A stretch of DNA of 64,000 nucleotides, taken from positions 2,046,001 to 2,110,000 of the forward strand of contig NZ_CP014206.1 of assembly GCF_001563225.1 (NCBI RefSeq), in the 5' to 3' direction. Below the pieces are notes generated by a model. That model had not been told where the DNA came from and ran no database searches. It was given only the letters and a program-made list of their open reading frames with translations. Shown in pieces: positions 1,093 through 63,674 of this stretch. The DNA is from Pseudodesulfovibrio indicus (GTDB lineage Bacteria; Desulfobacterota; Desulfovibrionia; Desulfovibrionales; Desulfovibrionaceae). The first letter of the stretch is position 1; the number at the start of each line of letters is the position of its first letter. The translations under genes and the position numbers were made by a program.

Positions 1093-1102
1093 GTGCATAA
1101 TC

Positions 1103-2470: not shown

Positions 2471-2540
2471 GATTGCAGTTAGAGTGCCGACTCGCATAAG
2501 CCCGGTGCATAAATTGAGGGCAGATCAATACGGAAAAAGA

Positions 2541-2575
2541 AGAAGACCGCCTTGTCTTGGGCGGCCTTCTTTCTG
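2541..2575. terminator. Bidirectional terminator between convergent genes
   Basis: An 11-bp stem with one A-C mismatch (AGAAGACCGCC / GGCGGCCTTCT), flanked by an A-rich run on the left and T-rich sequence on the right. It sits between the response regulator stop (2470) and the convergent kinase-like gene stop (2637). Confidence 0.7.
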
Positions 2576-2636
2576 AGGGGAGGTATGTCTCTATGAGTTC
2601 TTCCAAGTTTCAAGGAATAATCTCATGGAGTATGGG

Positions 2637-3638: not shown

Positions 3639-3687
3639 GGCTTACTCCTTGCTTCAGTTTTCAGTGGGGACAATCAGTTTTTTTATT

Positions 3688-4121: not shown

Positions 4122-4172
4122 AATTTCTCCATGGTTTGTCGATTGTTTCGACGTGTTTGTTTCCATGGTTTA

Positions 4173-4188
4173 GGCAAACGGCGTGCCA
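4173..4188 (-). promoter_or_regulatory. Sigma-54 (-24/-12) promoter of the Met-rich protein
   Basis: Read on the minus strand it is TGGCACGCCGTTTGCC, which matches the consensus TGGCACGNNNNTTGCA at all but the last position, including the GG and GC elements with correct spacing. The predicted transcript start is about 40 bases before the ATG at 4121. Confidence 0.8.
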
Positions 4189-4291
4189 ACAAAGATTATC
4201 AGGCTTGTATGTCCTTTTGTTCCAACTAGATATCAATATTTATTTGGAAAAAAGTTGTGATGTATCCCCTGAAGTTTACTCTGGTGTGATT

Positions 4292-4330
4292 AAAAATTAT
4301 ACAGGCAAAGAGCAGTGCCTGTATAATTTT
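4292..4330. terminator. 15-bp perfect inverted repeat, terminator of the phosphatase gene
   Basis: AAAATTATACAGGCA pairs perfectly with TGCCTGTATAATTTT across an 8-base loop. On the minus strand the stem is followed by TTTTTAATC, and the phosphatase gene ends just before it at 4369. The AT-rich base of the stem lets it act in both directions. Confidence 0.8.
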
Positions 4331-4368
4331 AAGATGGCAAAATCGGTTATCTTTTTTGATTCATCATA

Positions 4369-6480: not shown

Positions 6481-6808
6481 GAAGCCTCCAAGCTCCGAGA
6501 ATGTCTTATCGGATATAGTTGTTTACCACTAGTTGCTATGCGTGGCGATTTAGTTTTTTTCAATTTCATGAAGCTCTATGACAAATAATGGTTTTAATAT
6601 CAAAATTTGTGCAACATTGGGTATTCATGTTATAACGGTAAGTGACCATTTTTTGTACATTTACGTTGTTTGTTGATGAAAATCTATACACTAATCCTGA
6701 TCTAAATAGTCTGGATTTGTATTATAAATGAGCGTAACATCCAATGATAGACGATGAAAAAAGTTTTTGGCATGATGTTTGGAAATAACAGAGAAACCAA
6801 ACGGGGAC
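6481..6808. promoter_or_regulatory. AT-rich divergent regulatory region before the efflux operon
   Basis: This 328-base stretch has no convincing gene and separates the divergent phosphatase and TolC genes. It is strikingly AT-rich and contains an imperfect palindrome, AACAT..ATGTT, near 6612-6633, which could be an activator site. A sigma-54-like promoter lies at its right end. I could not find the same upstream motif in front of the Met-rich gene promoter. Confidence 0.5.
6768..6783 (+). promoter_or_regulatory. Sigma-54-like promoter of the efflux operon
   Basis: TGGCATGATGTTTGGA matches TGGCACGNNNNTTGCA with correct spacing and an intact -24 GG; the -12 element is GG rather than GC. The predicted start of transcription near 6794 leaves a short leader before the ATG at 6809. 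The match argues against the upstream TTG at 6779 as the start codon. Confidence 0.55.
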
Positions 6809-8176
6809 ATGATGAAGGCGTTAGTAAAAATATTATATAGTTGTACGATGGCAACGTTATTAATGGTGGCTGCTCTGCCTGCAGCCGCAGCCGATGCCGT
6901 TGATGCCGAACAAGTGCCCGCTCCCGGTAGCTATCTGGGCGACAGGGCCGAGCTGAGCGACCTCAGGTCATTTCTGGTGCAGGCTGCGGAAAATAACAAT
7001 GAACTTCGTGCCGCTTTCCAGAAGTGGCAGGCAGCTCTCAAGAACTCTGCGAGAGCGGATGTCCTTCCTGATCCGAAGTTCAACTTCGGCTATTACACTA
7101 CACCGCTTGAAACTCGTGGTGGCCCAGCCCGCTACAAGTACGGTCTGTCCCAATCTCTGCCGTTCTTTGGCAAGCTTGGGTACAAGGAGCAAATGGCACT
7201 GCGTCAGGCAGATGGGGTCAAGGCTCAACTGGATAGCTTGAAATTGTCGACCTTCTATCAAGTGAAGAATGTCTATTATGAATATGCCTACCTTGCCCGT
7301 GCCATCGACATCACCAAGGAAAACATCGAACTGATGAAGTACTTGGAGAAGATCGCCACTGCCCGTTACACCACAGGCTCTGCAAAGCATGCCGATATCA
7401 TCAGACCACAGGTTGAGCTTGGAAAGCTTGAAGATAAGCTCAATTCCCTGATCGACTTGAAGCACCCTTTGGCAGCAAAGCTTAACGCACTGCTTGATCG
7501 CCCTCGTGGGACAGGGATTGAATTCCCGGCATCTATCCCCATAATGTTCATGACGGACTCCGACGAAGCTCTTTTTGCTGAATTGCAGGAATACAACCCC
7601 AAGTTGGCCTACTGGGAAACTGTGGTGAAGAAGGAAGAGGCTGGGAAGGGTCTGGCTGAAAGAAATTACTACCCAGATTTCACTTTTGGCGTTGATGTAA
7701 CCGAAGTTGACGATGCCAGGAATCCTGGCGTCATTGGTGATGGGCAGAACCCGGTCATGACGTCCATGTCTTTCAATATACCCATATGGCTCGAGTCTCG
7801 CGGGGCTGCCGTGGATGAGAGTCAGGCAAAAATAATAGCTGCCAAGCGAAGCCGTGTCGGTCTTGAGCAGCAACTGAGGGCTGATTTGGAATTGGCTCTC
7901 TACAAGTACCGGGACGCTGGCAGGAAGATCAATTTGTACCGCGACACCCTCGTCCCCAAGGCGGAACAGTCTCTTGGCGTGACCATGGAAGCCTTCATGA
8001 CCGGCGCAGGTACATCGCTTGATTTGATCGACGCGGAGAAAACGTTGCTGGAACTCCAACTCGCTTACTACCGCGCCCTGACTGATCAGGCCCAAAAGCT
8101 CGCTGAGATTGAAACGCTGGTCGGTCGGGAATTGCCCTGTGAATTCCACGGCTCGCTCTTGAAGAAGGAACAGTAA
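6809..8176 (+). CDS. Outer-membrane efflux protein, TolC/CusC family
   Basis: Start at the ATG at 6809 (a second ATG follows directly) after ACGGGGAC; it opens a signal peptide ending LPAAAADA. The mature protein has the two long helical repeats of outer membrane factors (for example LYKYRDAGRKINLYRDTLVPKAEQSL and AEKTLLELQLAYYRALTDQAQK regions). It should form the trimeric outer-membrane channel of a tripartite efflux pump with the CusB- and CusA-like proteins encoded 340 bases downstream. First gene of the operon. Substrate, probably Cu(I)/Ag(I), is inferred from the partners. Confidence 0.9.
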   Translation: MMKALVKILYSCTMATLLMVAALPAAAADAVDAEQVPAPGSYLGDRAELSDLRSFLVQAAENNNELRAAFQKWQAALKNSARADVLPDPKFNFGYYTTPLETRGGPARYKYGLSQSLPFFGKLGYKEQMALRQADGVKAQLDSLKLSTFYQVKNVYYEYAYLARAIDITKENIELMKYLEKIATARYTTGSAKHADIIRPQVELGKLEDKLNSLIDLKHPLAAKLNALLDRPRGTGIEFPASIPIMFMTDSDEALFAELQEYNPKLAYWETVVKKEEAGKGLAERNYYPDFTFGVDVTEVDDARNPGVIGDGQNPVMTSMSFNIPIWLESRGAAVDESQAKIIAAKRSRVGLEQQLRADLELALYKYRDAGRKINLYRDTLVPKAEQSLGVTMEAFMTGAGTSLDLIDAEKTLLELQLAYYRALTDQAQKLAEIETLVGRELPCEFHGSLLKKEQ

Positions 8177-49541: not shown

Positions 49542-51250
49542 ATGTGCGGAATCGGCGGCATACTGAATCCCGGCGGCATCCCCCTCGAGGCTCGTCACCA
49601 GGCGATCCTCGACGGCTTCGTGGGGCCATGCAGCCGCGCGGTCCGGACGGGAATGGGGTGTTCGTGGACCGGGAGGCCGGGCTGGCCCACACCAGGCTGG
49701 CGATCATCGACCCGGATCCCCGCTCCGGTCAGCCCATGGCGTCCGGCGACTGGGTCCTCTCCTTCGACGGCCGAATCCTCAACCACCGGGACATCCGGGC
49801 CGAGCTGGGGGACCGCTGCGTCTTCCGCACCGAGTCCGACGCCGAGGCGCTGCTCATGGCCATCGGGGAGTGGGGGCTGGACCGGGCGCTCAACCGCTGT
49901 GCCGGGATGTTCGCCTTCCTGGCCTGGAACAGGCGGGAGCGGGCGCTCTACGCGGTCCGGGACCGCATGGGCATCAAGCCGCTGGTCATGGCCCGGCTGG
50001 ACGACGGTTCCCTGTGCTTCGCCTCCTCGGCCGGGGCCATGGTCCGGGCCACGCCCGGGGTGTCCTGGCCGATCCACGAGCCCGCCCTGGCCTCCTTCTT
50101 CGTCCTGGGCGCGCCCTTCACCCGGTCCACGGTCTTCGCAGGCATGGAGCGGGTGCCTACGGCCAGCTATCTGCGCTGCGCACCGGACGGGAAGGTGACC
50201 ACGGTCCGCTATTGGAGGCCGACTCCCAATCCGGCCTTCACCGTGGAGGACCTCGTCGGAGTGGTCCGCGAGCACGGAGCGGCGGATGTTCCTTCGGCCC
50301 TGTTCCTGAGCGGCGGGGTGAATGCCTCGTTTCTGGCCTCGGTCATGGATCTCGACTGTATTCACCTGCGCTCGCCCGAGACCCGGTATGCCGAGACCGT
50401 TGCCGGGGCGTTCGGGCGCGGGTTGGTCTGCGTGGAGCCGGACCTGGCCGGGCACCGCGAGGACGTGTCGCGGGTCGTGGCCCAGCACGGCGAACCGTTG
50501 ATGAGTTGCGGCATTCCCCACGCCGCGGCCCGCGCCGCCGGCCGGGCGGGGTACAAGATGGCGGTCAGCGCCTACGGCGCGGACGAGCTGTTCCACGGCT
50601 ATCCGCGCACGCCCATGCCCGGATACGCGCCGTCCTTCCTGCCGCTTCACGAGCGCGCATCCTGTACCTTTCTGAACGGACAGCTGGCGCATATTTTCCG
50701 CGACGCGCGCCACTTCCGCATGGAGGGGGCCAACCTGCGTCCGCCCTCCCTGCGCGACATAGGCCGGCGCATCCTGGCCGAGTATTCTTTGCCCGACTTT
50801 TCCCCCTCGGCCAACCACCGCTGGCTGGAGCTGATGACCTATGTGCTCTTCGACCTGAACCCGACCCTGGACGCGGCGTCCATGGCCGCCGGGCTGGAGG
50901 TCCGGCTGCCGTTCCTGGACCACCGCATCGTGGAGGGCGTCCTGTCCTGGCCCCCTGAGCGGCTGGTCACGGCCAGGTTCGGCCGCAAGTCGCCCCTGCG
51001 CGAGCACCTGGCCGGGCTGCTGCCCGAAGCGCTCTTCAACCGTCCCAAGGTCGGGTTCAGCCTCTACAGCCCGCTGCACGAGGATATCGCTTCCCTGGGA
51101 CCGGCGGCCCTGGCTCGCGCCGAAGCGTCGGGACGCCTGGCCCTGGGCAAGGAGGACCACCCGCAGGCCGGGAGGGACCGCATCTGCCTGGGGTCCTGTT
51201 GCTTCGCCTTCGAACAGTGGCAGCGGGCCTTCGGGCCGGAGGAGACGTGA
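49542..51250 (+). pseudogene. Asparagine-synthase-like amidotransferase, frame broken near the N-terminus
   Basis: The ATG at 49542 opens with MCGIGGILNPGG, whose Cys2 is the glutaminase nucleophile of class II amidotransferases. The frame is lost at the G4 run 49622-49625; one added G joins it to GAMQPRGPDGNGVFVD and the rest of a protein of about 570 residues. The glutaminase part (HTRLAIIDPDPRSGQPM) and the ATP-dependent part (AYGADELFHGY, LPFLDHRIVEGVL) are recognisable. The PP-loop reads LSGGVNAS instead of SGGxDSS. Its position before surface-glycan genes suggests amidation of a sugar or glycan precursor rather than asparagine supply. Confidence 0.8.
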
Positions 51251-52421
51251 TGAGCGATTTCTCGCCGCTCCTCTTGTTGTTCAGGGGGTGCGCCAAGTTC
51301 CTGGAGCGAATCCTCCCGTATCGTGTCTACCGGCCGCTCTACGTCCGGGTGCGCACCGTCTATGACCGGATGGCGGGCAACGACCCGCTGCCGGGGCTGT
51401 TCGCAGCGCCCCCGCCGCCGAAGGCTCAGCCCGCCTCGGGGCCCGGCCCAAAAGAAAGTCCGGAGCCGGATCTGGAAACCTTGGCGGTGATCGAGCCGTT
51501 GGAACCGGAGGCCGCATCCGAGCCGTCGCACGGGCCGGTTGGCGGGCACGACCTGGCCGAACCCGAAGGCCCCGTCATCCTCTGCACGGGCGGGACCGTC
51601 GGTATCGGGGACCTGGAGACCGTGCGCGTCCGCTGTCCGGTGGTCGTGTGCTGCGCCTTCCACGGCAGGCACGAGGTCCTGGAGCTGGTGGTGCGCGAGT
51701 CCCTGCACGCCGACGTGGCGGTCCACTGGATGCTGGCCGGAAGCTCGGACGAGGACCGGGGGTTCATGGAGCGTCTGGCCGGGGAGACCGGGCGGGTGTC
51801 CGGGTTGGTCTGCGACAACGCGCCCCTGGGCCGTAAGTGGCAGACCTGCGTTCGCGCCGCCCATCGGCTGTACGACGCCGACCTTTACGCCATCACCGGC
51901 AGCGACGATATTCTGTCTCACAGGCTCATAGAGCACGTGGTCCGGTCCCGCGAAGCGGACCTGGCCAAGCCCGCCGGGGTGGGCCCGGATTTCTATTGCG
52001 TCACCGGCTGGCTGGTGCACGGCGAAGCGCCGGGATTCGACCCCATGCTCCTCAAGTGCTCCTACCGCTGGGAAAAGGCGTTCCAGCCGCTGGGCGCGGG
52101 CCGGTTCTACTCCCGGAAATTCCTGGACCGCGTGTCCGGGCTGGTCTTCGACAGCGGGCGCGCCAGGGGCTGGACGGTCGCGGCTACGGGCTGGTCCGCG
52201 AGCTGGGCGGGCTGGTGGCCTACTGCACCGTGGAGGACGGGCCGGTGGTCAGCATCAAGGGCGAATGGGAGCAGCTCAACCGGCTGGAAACGTTCTTCCG
52301 CGTGGACACCCTGCTGATCGAGGAATGTTCCTTCGAGGGATACCGGTTGCTCAAAGCGTCCCTGCACCCGGAGACCTTTGCCCGGTTGTTCGCCACGGAC
52401 GCGACCGGGCTGTTTTGTTGA
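51250..52421 (+). pseudogene. Putative glycosyltransferase-like protein, frame broken near the C-terminus
   Basis: Its ATG overlaps the preceding TGA (ATGA), so it is coupled to the amidotransferase gene. An N-terminal Pro-rich linker (residues ~55-100) precedes a GT-A-like region with VCDNAPLGRKWQTCVRAA and the DxD-like AITGSDDIL. At the G4 run 52166-52169 the frame shifts; one added G continues it as RGLDGRGYGLVRELGGLVAY to the stop at 52421, about 390 residues. The class is uncertain: the motif pattern resembles family 2 glycosyltransferases. Confidence 0.62.
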
Positions 52422-52452: not shown

Positions 52453-53238
52453 ATGCTGCGACTGACCAGGACCTTGACCGGCCACCGCGACGCGTTGGCC
52501 GCCCTGTGCGGGGTGGGACTGAAGACCACCGTGGCCACCACCCGGCTGGGCTGGCTGTGGTGGATCTGCGACCCGCTGTTCATGATGGGCGTGTACTATT
52601 TCATGGTCCGGCTGGTCTTCGGCCGGGGCGGCCCGGACTACCACCTCTTCGCCCTGACCGGCATCGTCTGCTGGCAGTTCTTCGCCCGCACCGTGCTGCT
52701 GACCGCCGGTTCCCTTCGGCGCAACGGGCAGCTCCTCTCGCACAGCACGGTCCCGCCGGAGACCTTCACCGTGGTCCCGGTCCTGATCCAATTGTTCTTC
52801 GCCCTGATCGGCTGCGCCATCATCGTGGCCTGGCACTGGACGGGCATCGGCCCGGCAACCCTCTGGCTCTTCCCGGTGCTGGGGGTCATGGGCCTCTACG
52901 CCCTGGCCCTGGGCGCGCTGCTCTCCGTGTTCGTGGTCTTCATGCCCGACGTGTCCAAGTTCGCGGACTACGGGCTGCGCGCCGGATTTTTCCTCTCTCC
53001 GGTCCTCTATCCGGCGGCGGCTGTCTCCGGCAGCGACCGGGTGCCGGAGCTGGTCAAGGCCGTCTACGGGCTCAACCCCATGGCCTGGGGCATCACCGCC
53101 ATGCGCGGGGCCATCCTGGACGGGACATCCCCCGATACGGCCCCGTTCCTGGCGGCCCTGGCGGGCGGCCTGGTCCTGCTCCAGTTGGCCCTCGCGGTCC
53201 TGCGCGCCAACCGTCAAAACGTGATGAAGCATCTGTGA
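52453..53238 (+). CDS. ABC-2 type polysaccharide export permease (Wzm-like)
   Basis: Start at 52453 (MLRLTRTLTGHRDAL). 261 residues with six hydrophobic helices in ABC2_membrane layout: GWLWWICDPLFMMGVYYFMV near the start, LFALTGIVCWQFFARTVLL, then ALGALLSVFVVFMPDVSKFADYGL and FFLSPVLYPAAAV, ending in NPMAWGITAMRGAIL. It should export a lipid-linked glycan across the inner membrane with the ATPase encoded seven bases downstream. Confidence 0.88.
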   Translation: MLRLTRTLTGHRDALAALCGVGLKTTVATTRLGWLWWICDPLFMMGVYYFMVRLVFGRGGPDYHLFALTGIVCWQFFARTVLLTAGSLRRNGQLLSHSTVPPETFTVVPVLIQLFFALIGCAIIVAWHWTGIGPATLWLFPVLGVMGLYALALGALLSVFVVFMPDVSKFADYGLRAGFFLSPVLYPAAAVSGSDRVPELVKAVYGLNPMAWGITAMRGAILDGTSPDTAPFLAALAGGLVLLQLALAVLRANRQNVMKHL

Positions 53239-53245
53239 GGCCCGG

Positions 53246-54043
53246 ATGAACGGAAACGACCGACTGCTGCGCCTGGAAAACGTGGGGCTGTACTACCGCC
53301 GCCCCGCGCGTTCCATCCTGGGCAGGAATCCACAGCTCCGGCGCTCCCGCCGGTTCTGGGCCCTGCGCGGCGTGGACCTGACGCTCTCTCGCGGCGAATC
53401 CCTCGGCCTGGTGGGCCGCAACGGGTCTGGCAAATCGACGCTCTCCAAGGTCTGCGCCGGGGTGCTGGCCCCGGACGGCGGCACCGTGGCGATCAACGGC
53501 AGCGTGCATCTCCTGGCGCTCGGCGTGGGGTTCCGCCAGGAGCTGACCGGGCGGGAGAACGTCCTGGTGAGCGGGGTGCTGTTGGGCATGTCCCGGCGCG
53601 AGGTCCTGGCCCGCATGGAGGAGATCGAGACCTTCGCCCAGCTGGGCGACTTCATGGACGAGCCGCTGTCCACCTATTCCACGGGCATGAAGAGCCGGTT
53701 GGGGTTCGCGGTCTCCACCGCCGTGCGCCCGGACGTCCTGATTCTCGACGAGGTTTTGTCCACGGGCGACGAATCCTTCCGGCTGCGGGCCGAGGAGCGC
53801 ATGGACACCCTGCGCGGGGAGGCGGGCGCGGTGGTCGTGGTCTCGCACAACGCGGGCCAGGTCCGGCGGCTGTGCGAACGGGTGGTCTGGCTGGAACGGG
53901 GCAGGGTGCTCATGGACGGTCCCGTGGGCGAGGTCCTGGATCGCTACGCCGAATTCTGCAAGGGGTCGGAGTCGTGGCTGGCCGCCAACCCCGGCCTGTC
54001 CGCCCCGGACGATTATCCCGACAACTCTCCGAGCGGGGAGTGA
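53246..54043 (+). CDS. Polysaccharide/O-antigen ABC transporter ATPase (Wzt/TagH-like)
   Basis: 265 residues: Walker A GRNGSGKST, Q-loop region LALGVGFRQELTGREN typical of the Wzt/TagH group, the signature YSTGMKSRL and Walker B VLILDEVLSTGDE. The characteristic segment LSRGESLGLVGRNG is present. There is no long C-terminal carbohydrate-binding domain as in Wzt of O9a type, so it resembles the short forms such as TagH or KpsT. It pairs with the permease gene before it. Confidence 0.92.
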   Translation: MNGNDRLLRLENVGLYYRRPARSILGRNPQLRRSRRFWALRGVDLTLSRGESLGLVGRNGSGKSTLSKVCAGVLAPDGGTVAINGSVHLLALGVGFRQELTGRENVLVSGVLLGMSRREVLARMEEIETFAQLGDFMDEPLSTYSTGMKSRLGFAVSTAVRPDVLILDEVLSTGDESFRLRAEERMDTLRGEAGAVVVVSHNAGQVRRLCERVVWLERGRVLMDGPVGEVLDRYAEFCKGSESWLAANPGLSAPDDYPDNSPSGE

Positions 54044-55194
54044 GGTCGGGAACCGCCGTGCCTCGCCCGAAGCCCGTTGTCACCGCCGTCGTCCTCGGCG
54101 TTCATTCCTTCGACGCCCCGCACCGCAGGACGGGCATTCAGTACATCGCCGAGGGGCTGGCACGCTCGGGCGTGTCCGTGGACTACCTCTCCGTGCCGTC
54201 CTCGCCCCTGGACGTCCTGGGGCGCGAACGGCTGGCGCGGTTGGCGCGGGTCTGGCCCCGGCTGGGCCGCGCCCCCGTTACCGAGCCGGTCCCCGGGCTG
54301 CGCGAATTCGCCTTTCTCTCTCCGGTGCCGGTCCACCGGTTCTTCGTTCCGGGCCGGGTCGCCCTTCGCGCCGTGCGGCTGCCAGCGGCAGGTTTCTTCC
54401 AATCCCGGGCCTACGACCTGTGCGTCCACGACGTGGGGCCGACCATGGCCTACCTCCCCTTGGTCCGGGCGCGCCGCTTAATCCTCCGCCTGAACGACGC
54501 GCCGGACGGGTTGTCCGGCCTGCCGCCGGTCCTGGGGAGCGCGCTCGAAGACCGCCTTGCAAGGGGGCTGTACGAGCGGGTCTGGGCCGTGTCCCGGCCG
54601 CTGGCGGAGTGGGCGGCGGCAACCGCGCCGTCCACCCCGGCGGACCTCGTTCCCAACGGGGTGGACGCCGAACTGTTTGCGGGGACGTCTCCCGTGCCGG
54701 GGGCGGAAAAGCGGGCCGTCTGCCTGGGCAACCGGTCGCCCTGGCTTGACCTCGACCTGCTGCGCAGGGTCGCCGGATTGTTGCCGGACTGGGAGATCCA
54801 TTGCGTGGGCGGAGGGTTCGGACGCGGCCGGTCCAACCTGTGGTTCCTGCCGCCGGTGGCGCACGACGCCGTGCCGTCCCTGCTGTCCGGGTATGGCGTG
54901 GGGCTGCTGCCCTTCCGGGAGAGTCCGCGCATGGCCGCTGTGGAGCGCCCCCTGCGGTTCTATGAATATGTGGCCGCCGGTCTGGGCGTGGCATCCACGC
55001 CGGTGGGCGGTCTGCGCGCGGGGCTGGCGGGCTGGGCCGAGTTCGGGGACGGGCCCGGGCGGTTCGCCGAGGCCGTCCGGATGGCCGCCGACCGCCGCCC
55101 GAATCGTGCGCGGCGCGAGACGTTTCTGCGGGAAAACGGCTGGCAGGCCCGGCTGGCCGAGATGTTCCGCACCGTGGGCCTCAGCAACGGCTGA
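54040..55194 (+). CDS. Glycosyltransferase, family 1/4-like (GT-B)
   Basis: Start taken at the GTG overlapping the ATPase stop (GTGA, 54040); a GTG at 54058 is the alternative. About 384 residues. Features of a GT-B retaining transferase: VWAVSRPLAEW and VPNGVDAELFAG at the interdomain region, WEIHCVGGGFGRG, and near the end LLPFRESPRMAAVERPLRFYEYVAAGLGVAST, typical of the nucleotide-sugar site. It probably adds a sugar to the exported glycan. Sugar and linkage cannot be read from sequence. Confidence 0.82.
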   Translation: MRSGTAVPRPKPVVTAVVLGVHSFDAPHRRTGIQYIAEGLARSGVSVDYLSVPSSPLDVLGRERLARLARVWPRLGRAPVTEPVPGLREFAFLSPVPVHRFFVPGRVALRAVRLPAAGFFQSRAYDLCVHDVGPTMAYLPLVRARRLILRLNDAPDGLSGLPPVLGSALEDRLARGLYERVWAVSRPLAEWAAATAPSTPADLVPNGVDAELFAGTSPVPGAEKRAVCLGNRSPWLDLDLLRRVAGLLPDWEIHCVGGGFGRGRSNLWFLPPVAHDAVPSLLSGYGVGLLPFRESPRMAAVERPLRFYEYVAAGLGVASTPVGGLRAGLAGWAEFGDGPGRFAEAVRMAADRRPNRARRETFLRENGWQARLAEMFRTVGLSNG

Positions 55195-56307
55195 CGACTT
55201 CTCCGTACAATTCCTCCAGCTCGCGGGCCGCGAACCGGATGGCGAACCGTTCGTCGAACCGGCGGCGCGAGGCAATGCCCATGGCGGCCAGCGCTTCGGG
55301 GGAGCCGAGCATCTCCCGCATGATTTCGGCCAGCGCTTCGGGGGCGGCGGGGGGCGCGGTCCTGCCGGTGACCCCGTCCAGGTTCACCCAGTCCGTGCCG
55401 GAGCCGGGGATGGAGGTGGTCAGCAGGGGCAGTCCGTAGCGCATGCCTTCGAGCAGGACCATGCCGAAGGCCTCGGCCCGGTTCGTGGAGGGCAGGCAGA
55501 GCAGGGAGGCGTGCCGGAGCAGCCGGTGCAGCTCGTGATCCGGGACCTCGCCGGGCAGTAGCACCCGGTCCTCCAGGCCGAGCCGGTCCCGCTCACGCAG
55601 GGCCGCCGCGTACTTGGGCCCATCGCCCGCGATCACGAAGTCTGCCGCCGAAACCAGCTTCGCGGCATGAACAAGCAGCTCGAATCCTTTGTAAAAAGTG
55701 AAACGTCCCACGCCGACCACCAGCGGACGGCGCGGCTTTTCGATCTCCGCCGGTTCGGGATACCGGGCCGGGTCTATGCCCAGCGGGATCACCGCGCATT
55801 TGGGGCGGAACCCGGCCAGCGCCGGGCTGGAATCGAGGTACGGGGGGAGGTCGCCACGATGCGGTCCGCCCGCACCAGGCAGTCCCGTTCGAAGCGGCTG
55901 TAAGCCGGGTAGAGGATGCGCGGCGCCAGGCCGGGCGCGGTGTCCGCGTCGGCGTGCCAGTGGACCACCAGGGGGAGGGCTCGGGGTACGAGCCGGTGGA
56001 AGAGGACCGCCGGGTTGGGCAGGTGCAGGTGGACCACGTCGAACCCGCCCTGACGGACGAGGCTGTGCAGCAGGCGGGGGAAGGACGGGGAGAGCGGGGC
56101 GAAGCCCACGGTCGCCACGGTCCGGGCCAGGACGGTCCTGACCCCGTCGCGGACCTCGCCGCCGCTACGCCCGCCCTGGGCTGAGCCGTGGCAGAGGACC
56201 GTCACCTCGTGGCCGGACCGGACCTGTTCCACTGCCAAGTCGCGGACAAAGGTCTCGATGCCGCCCCGGTGCGGAAAGGCGTATTTGCCGACGTGCAGGA
56301 TGCGCAT
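55181..56307 (-). pseudogene. Glycosyltransferase family 4, frame broken at a G6/C6 run
   Basis: The N-terminal half starts MRILHVGKYAFPHRGGIETF and ends out of frame after RIVATSP; the C-terminal half continues from IPLGIDPARY with VGVGRFTFYKGFELLVHA and LPSTNRAEAFGMVLLEGMRYGLP. Adding one base to the run at 55842-55847 joins them through SPPYLDSSPALAGFRPKCAV into one GT4 protein of about 375 residues. Its 3' end overlaps the convergent glycosyltransferase gene by 14 bases. Confidence 0.85.
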
Positions 56308-56393: not shown

Positions 56394-57515
56394 ATGAAGG
56401 AAGTCATCGTCAACGCGCTGCCCATGACCGTTGTCGGCACCGGCATAGGGCGGTTTCAGCGCGGCCTGGCCGGTGCGCTGGCCGGTGGGCTGGGCGAGGA
56501 CGCGTGCGGGGTGCGGCCGGTCTGGTTCACCGGGAACGCGGTGTCCCCGATACCCCCGGAGCCGGGACCGCCCGGCTGGCTCGAGCGGGTCGGGCGGCTG
56601 CTCTGGCGCATGCCCTGGCCCGTGGCCTATGGCGCGCGGTTGGCCCGCCACGTTGTTACCGAGCGCCGGTTCGCCGGGGCGAGTCGCGGTTTCGACGTCT
56701 ATCACGAGGCCGGGTATTTCCCCTTCGTCAACGGCGCTGCCCGCACCGTACTCACGGTGCACGACCTCTCCCTGCTGCTCCATCCGGAGTTTCACCCCAG
56801 GGAGCGGGTTCGCTACTTCAATCGTTATTTCAAGGACCGGCTGGCGCTGGCGCACGCCTTCTGCGCGGTCTCGGAGTTCACCCGGCGCCAGATGGTCGAG
56901 CATCTCAAGCTGGACCCCGCGCGCATCCGGGTCACGGCGCCTGGAGTGGACCCGGTCCTGTTCAACGAGGGCGACGATCCGCAGGCCCGCTCGCTCCTGG
57001 ACCGCGCCGGAACGCCGGAGCGCTACGTCCTGTTCGTGGGTACCGGTGACCCGCGCAAGAACGCGGACCTGGCCGTGGCCGCCCTCGCCGGGACGCGGTC
57101 GCGCCTCCCGCTGGTCACCGTGGGCTGGGCCGGTTGGGCCGCTCCCCCTGTCGGGAGTCGGGGCAGGGTGGACCTTGGCTACGTCTCGGACCGGCTGCTT
57201 GCCCAACTCTACCGAAGCGCTGCACTGCTCGTCGTGCCGAGTGATTACGAAGGGTTCGGGCTGCCCGTGATCGAGGCCATGGCGTGCGGCTGCCCGGTGG
57301 TGGTGGCCGACGCCGGGGCGTTGCCGGAGACGGGCGGCGAGGCGGCTCTGGTGGTGCCGGACGTGCGTGACGCGGCCGGGTTCGCGGCCTGCATGGACCG
57401 GATTATCGAATGTCCGGAGGAAGGGGAGCGGCTGCGCGCGCTGGGATTTGAGCGTGCCGAGCGGTTCACCTGGACGCGCACGGCCAGGGAGACGACTGCC
57501 GCCTGGCTCGACTGA
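56394..57515 (+). CDS. Glycosyltransferase family 4 (mannosyltransferase-like)
   Basis: 373 residues. N-terminal domain with GTGIGRFQRGLAGAL and YHEAGYFPFVNGAARTVLTV; C-terminal nucleotide-sugar domain with YVLFVGTGDPRKN, VVPSDYEGFGLPVIEAMACG and PVVVADAGALPE. This is the standard GT4 layout, transferring a hexose from a nucleotide sugar to a growing glycan. It diverges from the preceding GT4 gene, with 86 bases between starts that must hold both promoters. Confidence 0.92.
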   Translation: MKEVIVNALPMTVVGTGIGRFQRGLAGALAGGLGEDACGVRPVWFTGNAVSPIPPEPGPPGWLERVGRLLWRMPWPVAYGARLARHVVTERRFAGASRGFDVYHEAGYFPFVNGAARTVLTVHDLSLLLHPEFHPRERVRYFNRYFKDRLALAHAFCAVSEFTRRQMVEHLKLDPARIRVTAPGVDPVLFNEGDDPQARSLLDRAGTPERYVLFVGTGDPRKNADLAVAALAGTRSRLPLVTVGWAGWAAPPVGSRGRVDLGYVSDRLLAQLYRSAALLVVPSDYEGFGLPVIEAMACGCPVVVADAGALPETGGEAALVVPDVRDAAGFAACMDRIIECPEEGERLRALGFERAERFTWTRTARETTAAWLD

Positions 57516-57630: not shown

Positions 57631-58662
57631 GTGAAATGGACGCTGTGCGCATGTCTGGTTCTGGTCCTGATGCTCTTCGGGACCGTCGCCTTTGCGGAGA
57701 CCAACGGGCAGGAGCAAGCCAACGAGGACATCGTCCGCGCCAGCAGCCAGGCGTTGACCAACATCGTCCAGACCCGCATTGCGACCATCGCCGCACCCCG
57801 GCCCGCCGGGCTGGACCAAATCTCCCGGAATTCCATCGACAAGAACGGCAACTTCGCCTTTTCCCTGACCGGCGAGGACCTGGGCCTGTCCGCAGGTGAC
57901 GATGAGGGCTACACGTTCGGCATCTGGGGCATGGGTTCCCTGATGCACTTCAAGAGCACGGCGGACGGCGGCAAATACGACGCCAACGCCTACAACGCCA
58001 TGCTCGGCTACGACTACCGCGCCACGTCGGACCTGCTCCTCGGCCTGGCCGTGGGCTACGGCTACCTCGACCTGGACAAGAAAGGCTGGAGCGGCGGCAC
58101 GGACGACGGCAGCCTGACCACGGACTACGAATGGACGCTCATGCCGTATCTTGCCTACAATATTACGGATTATACCATCCTCGACGCGGCCTTCGCCTAT
58201 ACCGACTCGCGCTACAAGGACGACGACGGGACCAACTCGGGGCACTACGACTCCAGCCGCTACCTGTCCAACATAGGCTTGTCCCAGTATTATCTCCTGG
58301 ACGAATGGATGTTCAGCGGGCGGGTCGGCTATATGTACGTCCACGGCGACCTGTCCACCTATTCCAGGGGCGGCGTGACCATCGCCAACCCGGACAGCTA
58401 CCTGGGGCAGCTGAACGGCGAGGCCAAGGCGTCCTACTTCTTCCTGAACGGGCTTGAGCCCTACGGTTCCCTGCGCTACTTCTACGACGCCAGCGTCTCG
58501 TCCACCCCGGTGGACTCCGACTATGACGAGTTCGAGGGCGTGCTCGGCGCCAACTGGTACGCCACGGACCAGTTCATCCTGAACCTGGAGACCGGCATGG
58601 GCATGGGCCGCCAGAAGTTCGAGTCCTATCGGGGACAGCTGAACCTCCGGTACGAATTCTAG
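57631..58662 (+). CDS. Outer-membrane beta-barrel (autotransporter-barrel-like) protein
   Basis: Start at the GTG at 57631, preceded by AGGAGG, which opens a signal peptide ending GTVAFA. 343 residues. After an N-terminal segment of about 90 residues come alternating aromatic/small-residue strands (YNAMLGYDYRATSDLLLGLA, AYGYL-like turns, MFSGRVGYMYVHGDL) typical of a 12-14-strand barrel. It ends in LNLRYEF with a terminal Phe, the signal for BAM insertion. No passenger domain is present. Function unknown; possibly linked to surface-glycan display. Confidence 0.8.
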   Translation: MKWTLCACLVLVLMLFGTVAFAETNGQEQANEDIVRASSQALTNIVQTRIATIAAPRPAGLDQISRNSIDKNGNFAFSLTGEDLGLSAGDDEGYTFGIWGMGSLMHFKSTADGGKYDANAYNAMLGYDYRATSDLLLGLAVGYGYLDLDKKGWSGGTDDGSLTTDYEWTLMPYLAYNITDYTILDAAFAYTDSRYKDDDGTNSGHYDSSRYLSNIGLSQYYLLDEWMFSGRVGYMYVHGDLSTYSRGGVTIANPDSYLGQLNGEAKASYFFLNGLEPYGSLRYFYDASVSSTPVDSDYDEFEGVLGANWYATDQFILNLETGMGMGRQKFESYRGQLNLRYEF

Positions 58663-58687
58663 CCCGCGCCCGGCGCGGACTTTTCAG

Positions 58688-58715
58688 GGGGCGCGCTTTG
58701 GCCGCCCCTTTTTTT
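58688..58715 (+). terminator. Terminator of the outer-membrane barrel gene
   Basis: GGGGCG / CGCCCC stem with a 9-base loop, followed by seven T residues, 25 bases after the stop codon. Confidence 0.85.
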
Positions 58716-58764: not shown

Positions 58765-59493
58765 ATGGTCATGCATGGAAAAGTGAAACCCGCCGTGATC
58801 ATTCCCGTCCTCGACGAGGTCTCGACCGTCCGAGAGGTGGTGCGCGGCGTCCTGGGCCACGGCTGCGACGCGATCGTGGTGGACGACTCCAGCTCGGACG
58901 GGTCGGGGCGGGCGGCCCGCGAGGCCGGGGCCGAGGTCCTGACCATGCCGTTCGGCTGCGGGGCGTGGAACGCGACCCTGGCCGGGCTGCTGCACGCCGT
59001 GAAGCGCGGCGGGTATCCCGGATTCCTGACCATGGACGGCGACGGCCAGCACGATCCGGACTGCATTCCGGCCCTTCTGGCCCACGGGGCCTCGACCGGC
59101 GCGGACGTGGTGGTCGGCAGCTGCCCGCAGCGCGGCGGACCGGCCCGGCAATGGGCCTGGAACCTCTTTTCCTCCATGACGCGCCTTCCGGTGCGCGACT
59201 TCACTTCCGGGTTGCGGCTCTATTCCCCGCGCGCGGTCCGCTGCGTGCTCACCCCGGAGGCGGCCCTGTACGATTACCAGGACCTCGGCGTCCTGCTCCT
59301 GTTGCACCGCCGGGGCTTGTCCCTGGCCGAGCTGCCCGTGGACATGCGCCCTCGGCAAAGCGGCCGCTCCAGGGTCTTCTCCAACCGCAGGGACGTGGCC
59401 GCCTACCTGGTCAAGACCGGCCTGGGCGTCCTCTCGCACTGGTTGGCCGCGCCCGCGCCTGTCGCGGACTGGAGGGATTATGACGCAGGCTAA
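58765..59493 (+). CDS. Family 2 glycosyltransferase, polyprenyl-phosphate sugar synthase-like
   Basis: Start at the ATG at 58765 (MVMHGKVKPAVIIPVLDE). About 242 residues: the GT-A core VIIPVLDE, AIVVDDSSSDGSG, the metal-binding TMDGDGQHDP, and FTSGLRLYSPRAV further on. This is the DPM1/GtrB-like pattern that makes polyprenyl-phosphate sugars or builds lipid-linked oligosaccharide. There are no C-terminal membrane helices. It overlaps the DUF2304 gene, a frequent partner of this enzyme type. Confidence 0.9.
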   Translation: MVMHGKVKPAVIIPVLDEVSTVREVVRGVLGHGCDAIVVDDSSSDGSGRAAREAGAEVLTMPFGCGAWNATLAGLLHAVKRGGYPGFLTMDGDGQHDPDCIPALLAHGASTGADVVVGSCPQRGGPARQWAWNLFSSMTRLPVRDFTSGLRLYSPRAVRCVLTPEAALYDYQDLGVLLLLHRRGLSLAELPVDMRPRQSGRSRVFSNRRDVAAYLVKTGLGVLSHWLAAPAPVADWRDYDAG

Positions 59494-59860
59494 TCTCGCG
59501 GCGGCGGTCATCGCCCTGTCTTTCGCCGTGGTCATCCTCCTGCTCGTGCGGCGGCAGCGGCTCGGGAGCTGGCAAATTCTCTGGTGGCTGGCGGCGGCGT
59601 GCGGCATGGCCGTCCTGGGGCTGTTTCCGTCCGTGGCCGACTGGGCCGGGGAGCGGCTCGGCATCCACTATCCGCCGGTTCTGCCCATCGTGGTGGCCCT
59701 GTGCCTGCTCTTCGTCAAGGTCTTGACCATGGACCTGGAGCGCACCCGGCAGGAGCGCAGGCTGCGCATCCTGGCCCAGAAGCTGGCCGGGGTCGAAGCC
59801 AGGCTCCATGACCTCGAACACCCGTCTCCCGGCGATTCGGACCGGGACGACCTGACCTGA
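59480..59860 (+). CDS. DUF2304-family small membrane protein
   Basis: 126 residues: three hydrophobic helices (ALSFAVVILLLV, ILWWLAAACGMAVLGLF, VLPIVVALCLLFVKVLTM) followed by a charged coiled tail (RTRQERRLRILAQKLAGVEAR). This is the DUF2304 layout. The gene overlaps the GT2 gene by 14 bases, so the two are coupled. Such proteins are thought to anchor or assist polyprenyl-sugar GT2 enzymes at the membrane. The biochemical role is not established. Confidence 0.82.
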   Translation: MTQANLAAAVIALSFAVVILLLVRRQRLGSWQILWWLAAACGMAVLGLFPSVADWAGERLGIHYPPVLPIVVALCLLFVKVLTMDLERTRQERRLRILAQKLAGVEARLHDLEHPSPGDSDRDDLT

Positions 59861-59865
59861 CCGCC

Positions 59866-60690
59866 ATGTCCCGGAGTTTTCTCAGGCCCCTTTCCCTTCT
59901 GCTGCTCCTCGGCTTGTTCCTGGGCGGGTGCGGCGGTCCGTATCCCATAGACGCCCTGGCGCCGGAACAGGGCTTCAGCGCCCACGTGCTGGCAGGCGAG
60001 ACCTTCGACCTGCGCTGGTTCGGGCGCGGGTGCGGCGCGACCCTGCGCGTCTACATTGAGGGCGACGGCCGGGCGTGGCTGACCCGGACCCGCCCGTCGA
60101 GCGACCCCACGCCGAGGCGCGCCGAGGGGTTCGAGCTGGCGGCGGCGGACCCGTCTTCGGCCGTGGCCTACCTGGCCCGGCCCTGCCAATATGCGGAGGA
60201 GGGCGGGCGGCGTAACTGCGTCATCCGGTTCTGGACCTCGGCGCGGTACGCCGAGCCGGTGGTCCGCGACCTCTCCTTGGCCGTGGACGCGGCCAAGGGG
60301 CAGGCCGGGGCCGAACGCGTGGAGCTGGTGGGCTATTCCGGCGGCGGGGCCCTGGTTGTGCTGCTCGCCGCCAGGCGCGACGACGTGACCGGGATCGTCA
60401 CCGTGGCCGGGAATCTCGACCACGCCTGGTGGACCGACCAGCATCGGGTTTCGCCCCTTGCCGACTCCCTGAACCCCATGGATTTCGTCCGTCGGGTGCA
60501 GTCCATCCCCCAGGTTCACGTTGCGGGTGCGGATGACGAGATCATTCCGCCCGCCATGGCCCTGCGGTTCGTCGCCGGTATGAGCGACGCGAGCCGGGCG
60601 CGAGTGATGGTGGTCCCCGGCATGGGTCACGACGGCGACTGGCGGGAACCCGTGGCCGAGGCCCTGGCCGAGTTGGAGGCGCTGCGATGA
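59866..60690 (+). CDS. Lipoprotein with alpha/beta-hydrolase fold
   Basis: 274 residues with a lipoprotein signal peptide (LLLLGLFLGGC, lipid-modified Cys) and an alpha/beta-hydrolase core: nucleophile elbow VGYSGGGAL, Asp in AGADDEIIPPA and His in VPGMGHDGDW. It should act at the periplasmic membrane face as an esterase or acyl hydrolase. It lies between the DUF2304 gene and the oligosaccharyltransferase, overlapping the latter by four bases. A role in trimming or deacylating the glycan or its carrier is plausible but unproven. Confidence 0.82.
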   Translation: MSRSFLRPLSLLLLLGLFLGGCGGPYPIDALAPEQGFSAHVLAGETFDLRWFGRGCGATLRVYIEGDGRAWLTRTRPSSDPTPRRAEGFELAAADPSSAVAYLARPCQYAEEGGRRNCVIRFWTSARYAEPVVRDLSLAVDAAKGQAGAERVELVGYSGGGALVVLLAARRDDVTGIVTVAGNLDHAWWTDQHRVSPLADSLNPMDFVRRVQSIPQVHVAGADDEIIPPAMALRFVAGMSDASRARVMVVPGMGHDGDWREPVAEALAELEALR

Positions 60691-62633
60691 AGGGCGAAGT
60701 CCGCCCACCGTCCCCGGCCCCGGCGGTCCTGGCGGCGATGGCGTTGGGCGTAGCCGCGATCCTGGCCGTGGCCTGGTTCCACTGGGGATGGCTGACCGAC
60801 AACGCCATGGTCCTGGACGGGGTCCCGGCCGTGGGGAACAACGACGGCTATTTCCATCTGGACCGGGCAACGGCGCTGGCGGAGCAGGGGGCCTGGTTGA
60901 CCGACGCCCTGACCGACCCGCGCCCGTCCATGCTCCTGCCGCACCTCCTGGCCCTGTTCGCCGGGACCGACCGCGCTCTGCTGCATCTCCTGGCGGCCTG
61001 CGCCGGGCCGCTGTCCGGGCTGGCCATGTTCCTGGCGGTTTTGCCGTGGGCGGCGGACACCCGGTCGCGGTTCACGATCCTGGCCGCGCCGCTCCTGGCG
61101 GTCCTGGCCCCGTACTGGGTGGTTCGCACCCATGTGGGGTTCCTGGACACGGACGGGGTGGCCGTGGGGTTGTCCTTCCTCGCGCTATATTGCGTCCGCC
61201 GGTTCTCGGCCGGTCCGGCCCCAGCCTGGGTGGCTGCCTACATTTTGGCCACGGCTGTGACCTGGCTCTGGTGGCGGCCCGGCGCGTACCTTTGCCTCGG
61301 TTTTCTGCTGCTCTACGCGGTATATCCTCCCCGAAACCGGCGCGACGGGGCGTTCAAGGTCGCCATCATCGGCGGAGTCCTGCTCGCGGCGGGGCTGGCC
61401 GCGGCCGGGGTGAAGCCGTTTTCCGGGGTGGGGGCCTATGTGGCGGCCCACGCGGACCTGGCCTTCGGCGGGGGAGACCGCGGGTTGCTCGGCAGCGCCG
61501 TGCGCGAGCTGGCCGGGGTGAGCGTGGCCGAATTGGGGCATCGGGCGCTCGGCGCGTCCTGGCTGCTGGTCCCGGCCCTGCTCGGCACCGTGGTGCATGT
61601 CCTCCGCTGCCGGGCGCGGGCGTTGTTTCTGGCTTCGGGCTGGCTTTTCGGGGCGGCTTCCCTGTATTCCCAGCGGTTCATCCCGCTGTTCGTGCCGGTG
61701 GCCGCCGTATACGCCGCCTACGGCACGGCGTTCTGCCTCGACCAGATTGATTCCTACGTCGGCCGGGTCGGGCGCGGGCAGTTGCGAGCGGCCTGCGCCT
61801 TTGCGGCCCTGGCGGTCCTGTTGGCCGGAAGCGCGGCGAACCTGAGCCGCTACCGGCCCGAACCCTATTTCCAGCGTGCGGATTTCGAACTGGCCGAGGT
61901 TGTGAAGCGGTCCTTTTCAGCGGACACGGTCATCTGGACGTGGTGGGACTACGGTTATTTCTTTCAGTATCTTACGGGGATGAAGACGTTCTTTGACGGC
62001 GGCTCCCAGACCGGGACCACCTGCTTCGCGGCGGCCTATCCGCTCATGCTGTCCGAACCTGCCCGGGGTGCGGCCTGGATGCGCCATTTCGCCGCGACCT
62101 TCCCCCGGTTCGACGAGTCCCGGCGGGGTGCGGGCTGGCAGCGGTACGCGGCGGAGCTGGCCGAATCCCTGGTCCGCGAGGATGACCGGGGCGGCCCTCC
62201 GGTTGCCCTGGTCCTGCCTGCGCGGGTCTACGGCGCGACGGGCTATCTCTACGCCTTCGCCCATGTCTACGACGAGCAGGTCCCGCCCGTGCGAAACCGG
62301 TTGGACCTCTTTGCGGCCCGAGGGTTCGCCTATGACGAGGGGGCGGGAGCCGTGACCGTTCCCGAGGCCATGATCGCCAAGGGGTATGAAGCGGTGGGGA
62401 GCGTCCTGGACGGTACGGACAGGGACCCGGCGGAGTTCGATTTCGCGTCTCTGGCCGACCCCTATCTTGTCTTTTCACGCCATGCGGATTTCGTGGCCGT
62501 CACCGATCGCGAGATGGTCTCTTCGGTGTTCTTCCGGCTGCTCGGGCTGTTTTCGCCCGCGCCGGACTTGTTCCGTCCCGTGACCTTCGGCTACCGGACG
62601 GGCGGCGCGTGGCGCGTGGCGGCGGGTTCCTGA
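60687..62633 (+). CDS. STT3/PglB-type oligosaccharyltransferase
   Basis: 648 residues: a 12-13-helix membrane half and a soluble C-terminal periplasmic half. Hallmarks are NNDGYFHLDRA with D53 (the first catalytic Asp, as in NDGYYY of PglB), VGFLDTDGV with D154 and D156 (as GYYDTD of PglB), the loop region SQRFIPLFVP, and WWDYG at residues 419-423, the signature of STT3, PglB and AglB. It should transfer a lipid-linked glycan to Asn of exported proteins. PglB homologues are known in Desulfovibrio. The ATG overlaps the hydrolase stop (ATGA), and the GT2/DUF2304 genes upstream make a coherent unit. Confidence 0.88.
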   Translation: MKGEVRPPSPAPAVLAAMALGVAAILAVAWFHWGWLTDNAMVLDGVPAVGNNDGYFHLDRATALAEQGAWLTDALTDPRPSMLLPHLLALFAGTDRALLHLLAACAGPLSGLAMFLAVLPWAADTRSRFTILAAPLLAVLAPYWVVRTHVGFLDTDGVAVGLSFLALYCVRRFSAGPAPAWVAAYILATAVTWLWWRPGAYLCLGFLLLYAVYPPRNRRDGAFKVAIIGGVLLAAGLAAAGVKPFSGVGAYVAAHADLAFGGGDRGLLGSAVRELAGVSVAELGHRALGASWLLVPALLGTVVHVLRCRARALFLASGWLFGAASLYSQRFIPLFVPVAAVYAAYGTAFCLDQIDSYVGRVGRGQLRAACAFAALAVLLAGSAANLSRYRPEPYFQRADFELAEVVKRSFSADTVIWTWWDYGYFFQYLTGMKTFFDGGSQTGTTCFAAAYPLMLSEPARGAAWMRHFAATFPRFDESRRGAGWQRYAAELAESLVREDDRGGPPVALVLPARVYGATGYLYAFAHVYDEQVPPVRNRLDLFAARGFAYDEGAGAVTVPEAMIAKGYEAVGSVLDGTDRDPAEFDFASLADPYLVFSRHADFVAVTDREMVSSVFFRLLGLFSPAPDLFRPVTFGYRTGGAWRVAAGS

Positions 62634-62639
62634 TTCACC

Positions 62640-63674
62640 CTATTGCCTGATGCGCGGCCTGACCGTGGGCTTGGGCTCCACCACCGGCGTCTTTACCGTG
62701 GGTACGGTCGGCGTGATGACCGGCTGCACCACCGGGGTCTTGAGCGTCGGTGTGGTGGTCACGGGCGTCTTCACCGTGGGGGTAGTGGTCACGGGCGTCC
62801 TCACAGTCGGCGCGGTCGTGGTCGCCGGGGTCTTGAGCGTCGGAGCCACCGTCGCGGTGCCGGTGGGGGCGGTCTTCAGCATCGGGACGGGCGCCGTGGG
62901 CGCGGCGTCGACCGGGGCCGCGAACGTGGTCGGGGCCTGGGGGTCGGAGGACGATCGCGTCGGTGCCGGAGCCGGAGCCTCGGATGAGGACCTGGACTGC
63001 GCCGGGGCCGTGTTCCCGGCCGGGGCCGGGGCGCTCGGGGCCGACGCGCCCAGGCGCAGGATGGCGTTGAACATGCTCGGCGGGATGGTAGTGGGCATGG
63101 AGATGACGCCCGTGGGCAGGATCCGCGTGCGCATGCCGCTTTTGGTGATGCGCATGGTCTGTTTCGAGGTCTTGATCTCCAGGGCGTGGCCCTCGCCCAG
63201 CTCAAGCGCGCCCGCCTCCTCTTCGTCCGGCTTGACGATGGAGTAGATATCGGAGCCCCGGATGCCCAGTGTGGCCAGGGGAGTCTCCATGTTGAACCCC
63301 TCCGGATTGGCCTTGACGATCTCGCCCGTCACGGCCCGGAAGGTGCCCTTGGTGAACTTGAACAACACTTCCGCGTTGGAGTCGTTGAAGACGTAGGTGT
63401 CGATGGCCGCGTGGCTGGATTCGTCCAGGGTCAGCCGGGACTGGTCCGAAAACAGGATGCTCAGTTCAGCGCCCTTGTCGGTATCCACCTCGTCCTTGAG
63501 CATGACCGGCTGGTTCACCGCCGCGTCCAGGCTTTGCCCCCCACGGAGGATCACGCAGCGCCCGTTGGCCACGGTGACGGTCCCGACCGGTTCGGAAGCC
63601 CGGGCCGGGGAGACCCCGGCGAGGAGCAGGAAGAGAAGAAACAGAGCCAGGACAACAAATCGTTTGTCGGACAT
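62640..63674 (-). CDS. Secreted FecR-domain protein with Thr/Pro-rich repeat tail
   Basis: 344 residues. A signal peptide (VVLALFLLFLLLAGVSPARA) is followed by a FecR domain (MLKDEVDTDKGAELSILFSDQS, FKFTKGTFRAVTGEIVKANP, METPLATLGIRGSDIYSIV). From about residue 205 the chain is an Ala/Pro/Ser- then Thr/Pro/Val-rich low-complexity tail with repeats of the type KTPVTTTPTV, likely extended in the periplasm or outside. FecR domains without FecI occur in sulfate reducers beside adenylate-cyclase or secretion genes. A secreted-protein gene diverges from it. Function unclear. Confidence 0.85.
   Translation of the reverse strand: MSDKRFVVLALFLLFLLLAGVSPARASEPVGTVTVANGRCVILRGGQSLDAAVNQPVMLKDEVDTDKGAELSILFSDQSRLTLDESSHAAIDTYVFNDSNAEVLFKFTKGTFRAVTGEIVKANPEGFNMETPLATLGIRGSDIYSIVKPDEEEAGALELGEGHALEIKTSKQTMRITKSGMRTRILPTGVISMPTTIPPSMFNAILRLGASAPSAPAPAGNTAPAQSRSSSEAPAPAPTRSSSDPQAPTTFAAPVDAAPTAPVPMLKTAPTGTATVAPTLKTPATTTAPTVRTPVTTTPTVKTPVTTTPTLKTPVVQPVITPTVPTVKTPVVEPKPTVRPRIRQ
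62690..62850. repeat. Imperfect 30-bp coding tandem repeats of the FecR-protein tail
   Basis: Units like GTGGTCACGGGCGTCTTCAC recur every 30 bases and encode ten-residue TPVTTTPTVK-type repeats. Two adjacent units are nearly identical; flanking ones are diverged. Confidence 0.65.

Follow-up and report, generated by a model that had tools for sequence, protein, structure and literature searches.

The stretch of DNA analyzed here is a 64,000-nucleotide window of the Pseudodesulfovibrio indicus genome (NZ_CP014206.1, positions 2,046,001 to 2,110,000). Its subject is a four-gene cassette encoding a family 2 glycosyltransferase (GT2), a DUF2304 protein, a hydrolase (HYD), and an STT3/PglB-type protein (STT3), together with the autotransporter gene (AT) that precedes it. 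The principal features, in window coordinates, are:

57631..58662, + strand, AT, short autotransporter-domain outer-membrane protein (PF03797, 48.9 bits; cut-off 26)
58687..58715, + strand, intrinsic terminator at the AT/operon boundary (G+C hairpin, then T7)
58765..59493, + strand, GT2, predicted polyprenyl-phosphate sugar synthase (PF00535, 1.7e-16)
59480..59860, + strand, DUF2304 membrane partner, GacJ/EpaJ/Rv3632-like (PF10066, 67.7 bits; cut-off 25.5; 1.2e-18)
59866..60690, + strand, HYD, predicted lipoprotein alpha/beta hydrolase (Hydrolase_4, 29.6 bits; cut-off 27)
60687..62633, + strand, STT3/PglB-type oligosaccharyltransferase, 648 aa (PF21436 STT3-PglB_core, 44.3 bits; cut-off 23)

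The four open reading frames lie where the original prediction, made from the letters alone, had put them, and its description of overlapping or nearly touching genes was borne out. GT2 and DUF2304 overlap by 14 bp, a 5-bp gap separates DUF2304 from HYD, HYD and STT3 share an ATGA overlap, and the Pfam families agree. The prediction was silent on AT directly upstream, on the conserved terminator between AT and the operon, and on a genome without a PglC/WbaP-type initiator.

The predicted STT3/PglB hallmarks D53, D154/D156, and W419-G423 (WWDYG) stand at their quoted positions. The N-terminal model PF02516 scored 15.6 bits, under its 24.5 cut-off. An alignment to Campylobacter lari PglB (ClPglB) had been proposed as a check, and a profile of ten relatives matched 3rce_A (E 6.8e-24) over two segments that together reach from the N-terminal helices across the catalytic periplasmic core. 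D53, D154, D156, E274, W419, W420, D421, and G423 are invariant in the 10 cassette STT3 proteins described below. D53/D154/D156 align with the metal-site/catalytic aspartates D56, D154, and D156 of ClPglB, E274 aligns with E319 (Glu in 61/61 aligned STT3 rows), and R330 aligns with R375 (equivalent kept in 60/61). E319 is described as the external loop 5 glutamate contacting the acceptor Asn, and the same source gives the role of R375 and names Y196 as a diphosphate contact (PMC6215017). The Y196 position is Arg or Lys in 10/10 cassette STT3s and in 0/51 other STT3 rows. This replacement may point away from a diphosphate donor, and it is only a hint because the position varies among the 51 other rows. 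The equivalog for Campylobacter-type PglB (NF050801) was not reached (49.8 bits; cut-off 1300). The genome has one STT3 gene. An AlphaFold model of STT3 from the single sequence had a predicted local distance difference test score (pLDDT) of 40 and was not used. At the level of sequence, STT3 keeps the catalytic residues of an N-oligosaccharyltransferase (N-OTase), and the N-glycosylation reading is well supported. Searches of open-licence PubMed Central (PMC) found no paper joining Pseudodesulfovibrio with oligosaccharyltransferase.

The proposal that GT2 and DUF2304 form a polyprenyl-sugar pair was supported by the PF00535 and PF10066 matches and by profile matches of the dolichol-phosphate mannose synthase type. 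The best solved relative of the GT2 profile is the P. furiosus enzyme of that name (9e-16), ArnC-type enzymes also match, and the nearest NCBIfam models are PpgS and AglJ, both below their equivalog cut-offs. A GT2 of this type adjoining a DUF2304 protein is the arrangement of the GacI/GacJ-type pairs. GacI is described as making GlcNAc-P-Und, boosted by GacJ, with the polytopic membrane protein GacL as the proposed user (PMC8327497); the counterpart in mycobacteria is the PpgS/Rv3632 pair together with Rv3779 (PMC3485146). STT3 has a DUF2304 gene within 10 kb in 9/10 cassette genomes (the tenth carries it on another contig) versus 3/77 other STT3 matches. PF02397, the PglC-type initiator family, is within 10 kb in 0/10 cassette genomes versus at least 14/77 other matches; these counts omit the G027:C18 fragment and two DUF2304 matches below cut-off. 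No PF02397 initiator was found in the complete 3.97-Mb host genome, and its sole PF00953 enzyme is MraY (TIGR00445, 434 bits), located between murD and murF. The lack of PF02397, the restriction of PF00953 to MraY, and the GT2/DUF2304 likeness therefore favor a glycan initiated on polyprenyl monophosphate, as in Haloferax. A polyprenyl-monophosphate donor for STT3 is a good but unproven inference.

Conservation was examined in 118 related genomes, the genome of the window (G000) included. STT3 of at least 42% identity occurs in 10/118, the host genome among them, and in 10/10 of these STT3-positive genomes HYD is directly upstream of STT3 with GT2-DUF2304 before HYD. The G027 cassette is split across two contigs, with HYD at the contig end; G027 shares the genus of the host genome, and its HYD row is identical to that of L090. 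Recurrence of the four-gene order had been set as a check, and with 10/118 genomes carrying it the order is not unique to this genome and is beyond chance. The GT2 and DUF2304 genes overlap by 11-20 bp in 10/10 cassette loci, and the HYD-STT3 spacing is -7 to +62 bp in the nine loci measured. The STT3 and HYD relatives are 40-58% identical to those of the window, and gene order, overlaps, and terminator are kept nonetheless. The 10 cassette genomes fall in two genera. Profile matches were found in 37/395 genomes sampled from the phylum; except for that of G000, the matches listed stop at or before position 525 of 651. Genes were called with a simple in-house caller, which missed the AT of L081 (present at 2523-3500).

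The autotransporter gene follows the cassette closely through these genomes. In 10/10 cassette loci AT lies upstream of the operon, followed by the hairpin and T-run, and, of the 118 genomes, those with an AT orthologue of at least 57% identity are precisely the 10 that carry the cassette. Weaker matches occur in G057 (34%) and in G026, G022, and G029 (26%); G057 also carries STT3 (32%) and HYD on the same contig. About 90 residues precede the barrel of the AT protein, and its PF03797 match spans profile positions 3-212 of 255 (scanned from the longer start at 57580). The host genome has two AT-domain matches. An AYN[I/F/L]T sequon is kept in 10/10 cassette ATs; Asn stands at that column in 2/55 other ATs, in an alignment that included nine cassette ATs and in which a gap shifts the neighboring columns. 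The AT sequons are not claimed as proof of a client, given shared ancestry, the gap-shifted columns, the Lys of G057 at this position, and low sequon density. The coincidence of AT orthologues with exactly the 10 cassette genomes makes AT the best candidate client of STT3.

HYD has a lipobox-like LGGC near its start, as read from the sequence, and many relatives have one. S158, D224, and H255 do not vary across alignments of 25 and 69 sequences; for the latter, 68/74 HYDs passed the length filter. The AlphaFold model (pLDDT 94.9) has an alpha/beta hydrolase fold, and the 50 entries listed by a PDB fold search (VIA-align), with Z 19.3-21.6, range over esterases, peptidases, and further alpha/beta hydrolases, too wide a spread to narrow the substrate. 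Model and alignments describe a generic alpha/beta hydrolase with a predicted Ser-Asp-His triad, S158-D224-H255. HYD as a VirJ/AcvB lysyl-phosphatidylglycerol hydrolase beside MprF was rejected: there is no VirJ match in Pfam, and the 835-aa neighbor (cluster c9) considered as MprF-type reads by eye as a LuxR/MalT-like regulator. No described function for the family was found in the open-licence PMC literature, nor a paper joining autotransporter, lipoprotein, alpha beta hydrolase, and glycosyltransferase.

At least 529 HYD relatives were confirmed in one scan of GTDB contigs. The neighborhoods analyzed are the best-scoring 80 of these loci, not a random sample, and 74 have a callable HYD gene. 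An autotransporter gene occupies offset -1 of HYD in 28/72 loci and shares the strand of HYD in 26 of them; among genes at offsets 4-8 on both sides, 3/385 are autotransporter genes. Pfam alone places an autotransporter at -1 in 27/71 (L132 omitted for size, 71 of 72) and at +1 in 3/71 (L090 and L092 omitted, 71 of 73). An autotransporter is within three genes of HYD in 45/74 loci, it is the commonest neighbor across the family, and the adjacency recurs in distant phyla. A modifying enzyme lies within three genes in 24/74 loci, including L090, itself a cassette locus, and 17 loci have both an autotransporter and such an enzyme. These enzymes comprise TPR-sulfotransferases, TPR proteins with a glycosyltransferase-9-like end, APS kinase, FkbM methyltransferase, a Wzy_C-like TPR protein, and GT2/DUF2304. 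Among 16 related genomes with HYD only, a Pfam-confirmed AT lies within three genes of HYD in eight, and a ninth (G072) was recognized by our own AT profile. The reading that fits HYD best is that of a serine hydrolase linked to autotransporters, which an N-glycosylation operon has recruited.

Six betaproteobacterial HYD loci (L095, L099, L103, L105, L106, L130) carry a TPR-sulfotransferase and a TPR protein with a glycosyltransferase-9-like end; some add APS kinase and FkbM methyltransferase, and an AT is within three genes in 5/6. They are possibly a system for sulfated/glycosylated surface proteins, and no open-licence PMC paper was found joining autotransporter, glycosylation, TPR, and sulfotransferase. 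In five alphaproteobacterial loci (L109, L128, L140, L145, L165) a large polytopic protein adjoins HYD or lies close to it, with AT within three genes in 4/5. Of four such proteins scanned, that of L165 matches Wzy_C (O-antigen ligase) weakly, under the cut-off. The idea that these neighbors (cluster c20) are distant STT3s was rejected at an hhalign probability of 0.4%. In G057 (L084/L107, 2352-4235) the polytopic protein after HYD has TPR matches at its end and reads as a TMTC-type transferase-like sequence.

We propose that the cassette forms a bacterial operon for N-glycosylation with ties to a surface autotransporter, a reading in which our confidence and our doubt are about evenly balanced. 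GT2, with its membrane partner DUF2304, would charge polyprenyl phosphate with the first sugar through a monophosphate link, as the families suggest. GT4 enzymes may extend the lipid-linked glycan, which a flippase would turn outward; Wzm/Wzt is a possible flippase in this genome. STT3 would then move the glycan onto Asn-X-Ser/Thr of exported proteins, with AT as the leading client. HYD would work as an esterase or acyl-transfer enzyme at the periplasmic/outer-membrane side, with AT or its glycan as target. It is assigned there rather than to the lipid donor because the family adjoins autotransporters whatever the neighboring modification chemistry. A wider form of the proposal joins a monophosphate-fed STT3 dedicated to AT with a previously unrecognized family of lipoprotein serine hydrolases that would serve modified autotransporters across Proteobacteria, with N-OTase, O-antigen-ligase-like, TPR-glycosyltransferase, or sulfotransferase partners. 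This extension is tentative, and we doubt it more than we believe it.

Several observations weigh against the proposal. The terminator lies between AT and the operon, and AT and the whole locus may simply have been inherited together. Sequons in the AT are sparse: the AT of the window has one and none with an acidic -2 residue, and cassette ATs have 5.8 sequons per 1000 residues compared to 17.2 in other ATs. The conserved sequon sits in an apparent barrel turn, where STT3-bearing G057 has Lys. A second, weaker STT3 match occurs in 4/10 cassette genomes (G014, G017, G027, G041), and 7/10 carry a PF02397 enzyme elsewhere, so a pyrophosphate donor is possible in those. The ClPglB residues M569 and I572, numbered by the 3rce_A alignment, we take to be the MxxI contact to the +2 Ser/Thr of the sequon; the corresponding positions are Val/Ala and Thr/Ala in the cassette STT3s, in a region where the alignment is weak. 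Tight HYD-STT3 spacing fits a role with the OTase equally well. In the HYD family, 29/74 loci have no AT within three genes, and 22/74 have neither an AT nor a listed modification enzyme.

One alternative is the original idea that HYD is a dedicated accessory of N-glycosylation, acting in glycan release, carrier recycling, or deacylation of the lipid-linked glycan. The position of HYD directly upstream of STT3 throughout the cassette genomes is consistent with this role, as is the grouping of the cassette HYDs in one clade of a quick tree (Shimodaira-Hasegawa-like approximate likelihood ratio test, 99). However, the family is broad, it is widespread without STT3 nearby, and it tracks autotransporters; 9/16 HYD-only genomes have no STT3 match (single-protein search, E 0.001). 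GT2 and DUF2304 also stand beside STT3 in six loci where HYD was not found in the fetched flanks (L013, L014, L173, L174, L175, L197), the last four from 29 other loci fetched from the phylum sample. The claim of an N-glycosylation-specific hydrolase did not hold up against these data, and we regard the accessory role as rather unlikely. A separate STT3 group (L179-L193, L195, L199) has SISEQ-like and mostly WWDHG-like motifs. GT2 adjoins STT3 without DUF2304 in the flanks in L179, L183, L184, L186, L187, L188, L189, L192, L193, L195, and L199.

A second alternative is a conventional route: STT3 would take its glycan from undecaprenyl pyrophosphate, and GT2/DUF2304 would supply only a polyprenyl-P-sugar for side-chain decoration, the part played by GacI/GacJ in streptococcal rhamnan. 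A pyrophosphate-linked donor is described for PglB (PMC6215017), the GacI/J-type pairs are described as decorating separately initiated polymers (PMC8327497), and most cassette genomes have a PF02397 enzyme somewhere. Set against this, three cassette genomes (G000, G011, G022) have no PF02397 match, and G000, the one of these three in which PF00953 was searched, has only MraY. No other GT-C-like gene was recognized in the scanned neighborhood, with no genome-wide GT-C search made, and the diphosphate contact Y196 is replaced in every cassette STT3. We judge this route unlikely, and a monophosphate donor remains our preferred reading.

It is distinctly improbable that the STT3 relative is no N-OTase and instead a GT-C enzyme that draws on polyprenyl-P-sugar to add a single sugar to a polysaccharide or lipid, like GacL or Rv3779. 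The gene logic does match GacI/J with GacL and PpgS with Rv3779, and the MxxI sequon-contact residues appear not to be kept in the weakly aligned region, but the acceptor-amide Glu, the WWD, and the metal-site Asp are invariant and the profile matches PglB through the catalytic core. There is a similarly small probability that this is a surface-polysaccharide island with HYD, AT, and FecR as passengers by common descent and no shared biochemistry: the cassette genomes are confined to two genera, so the conserved order may be inheritance, and the flanking glycosyltransferases and ABC exporter vary, but order, overlaps, and terminator persist at 40-58% identity and the HYD-AT adjacency reaches distant phyla.

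The genes that flank the N-glycosylation cassette and AT are:

52453..54043, + strand, Wzm/Wzt-type ABC exporter, candidate glycan flippase, in two genes (52453-53238, 53246-54043; PF00005, PF01061)
55181..56307, - strand, GT4-like gene in two open reading frames (55181-55792, 55789-56307; sequence reading and BLAST)
56394..57515, + strand, GT4-like glycosyltransferase (MshA-like, 1e-23, under the cut-off of that model)
62640..63674, - strand, FecR-domain secreted protein with a Pro/Thr-rich tail (PF04773, 37.3 bits; cut-off 24)

An exporter and three or four glycosyltransferases had been predicted upstream. The exporter and GT4-like genes are present; the glycosyltransferase number was only partly checked because the gene at 51250-52317 lay outside the hidden Markov model scan. 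The exporter ATPase matched PF00005 with 76.9 bits, and the permease matched PF01061 with 26.6 bits, just under the 26.9 cut-off. Within the stretches fetched, L074 alone showed the Wzm/Wzt pair beside the cassette, and L075 showed a Wzt-like gene. The exporter is not a constant member of the unit. Homologues of the GT4 gene at 56394..57515 are near the cassette in L074, L075, L076, L078, L079 (36%), L082, and L083. The split GT4-like gene has a frameshift here and is one gene of about 375 aa in relatives (L074, 3193-4326), so it is a pseudogene or a sequencing error. The FecR gene is convergent to STT3 and was called directly beside it in 6/10 cassette loci, the window included. The G+C content of window positions 1-8000 is 44-47% versus about 65% across much of the remaining window, possibly a foreign island.

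N-glycosylation by Desulfovibrio PglBs is already known, and these enzymes are described as proven OTases (PMC4894442). The cassette STT3 is homologous to the Campylobacter and Desulfovibrio PglBs and keeps the equivalents of D56, D154/D156, E319, R375, and WWDYG. It differs from C. lari PglB in length, 648 aa versus 713-724 residues, and in the Arg/Lys at Y196. The locus differs from the Campylobacter pgl locus in the presence of GT2/DUF2304 and HYD and in the lack of PF02397, both within 10 kb and in this genome. The cassette shares with GacI/GacJ, EpaI/EpaJ, WpsA/WpsB, and PpgS/Rv3632 a GT2 followed by a small DUF2304-type membrane protein, a polyprenyl-P-sugar, and a polytopic transferase as user, as those systems are described in PMC8327497 and PMC3485146. 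The users of those pairs decorate wall polysaccharides, whereas the candidate user here is STT3. In Haloferax volcanii, glycosyltransferases from AglJ on are described as building the glycan on dolichol phosphate for transfer by the oligosaccharyltransferase AglB (PMC3871713). AglJ is among the nearest NCBIfam models to the cassette GT2, but the Haloferax system is archaeal, and the portion of PMC3871713 used here names no DUF2304 protein or hydrolase. If the proposal is correct, an OTase working with a monophosphate-sugar synthase and no PglC-type enzyme would connect N-glycosylation in bacteria with that of haloarchaea, and the donor range for glycoengineering could widen. The pairing of HYD with autotransporters gives a common hydrolase family a candidate role that can be tested. 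The autotransporters of the AIDA-I/Aah and TibA/TibC systems are modified in the cytoplasm by glycosyltransferases that use nucleotide sugars. Those systems resemble the cassette in linking an autotransporter gene to a modifying glycosyltransferase, and the cassette differs in that its candidate enzyme is a membrane OTase.

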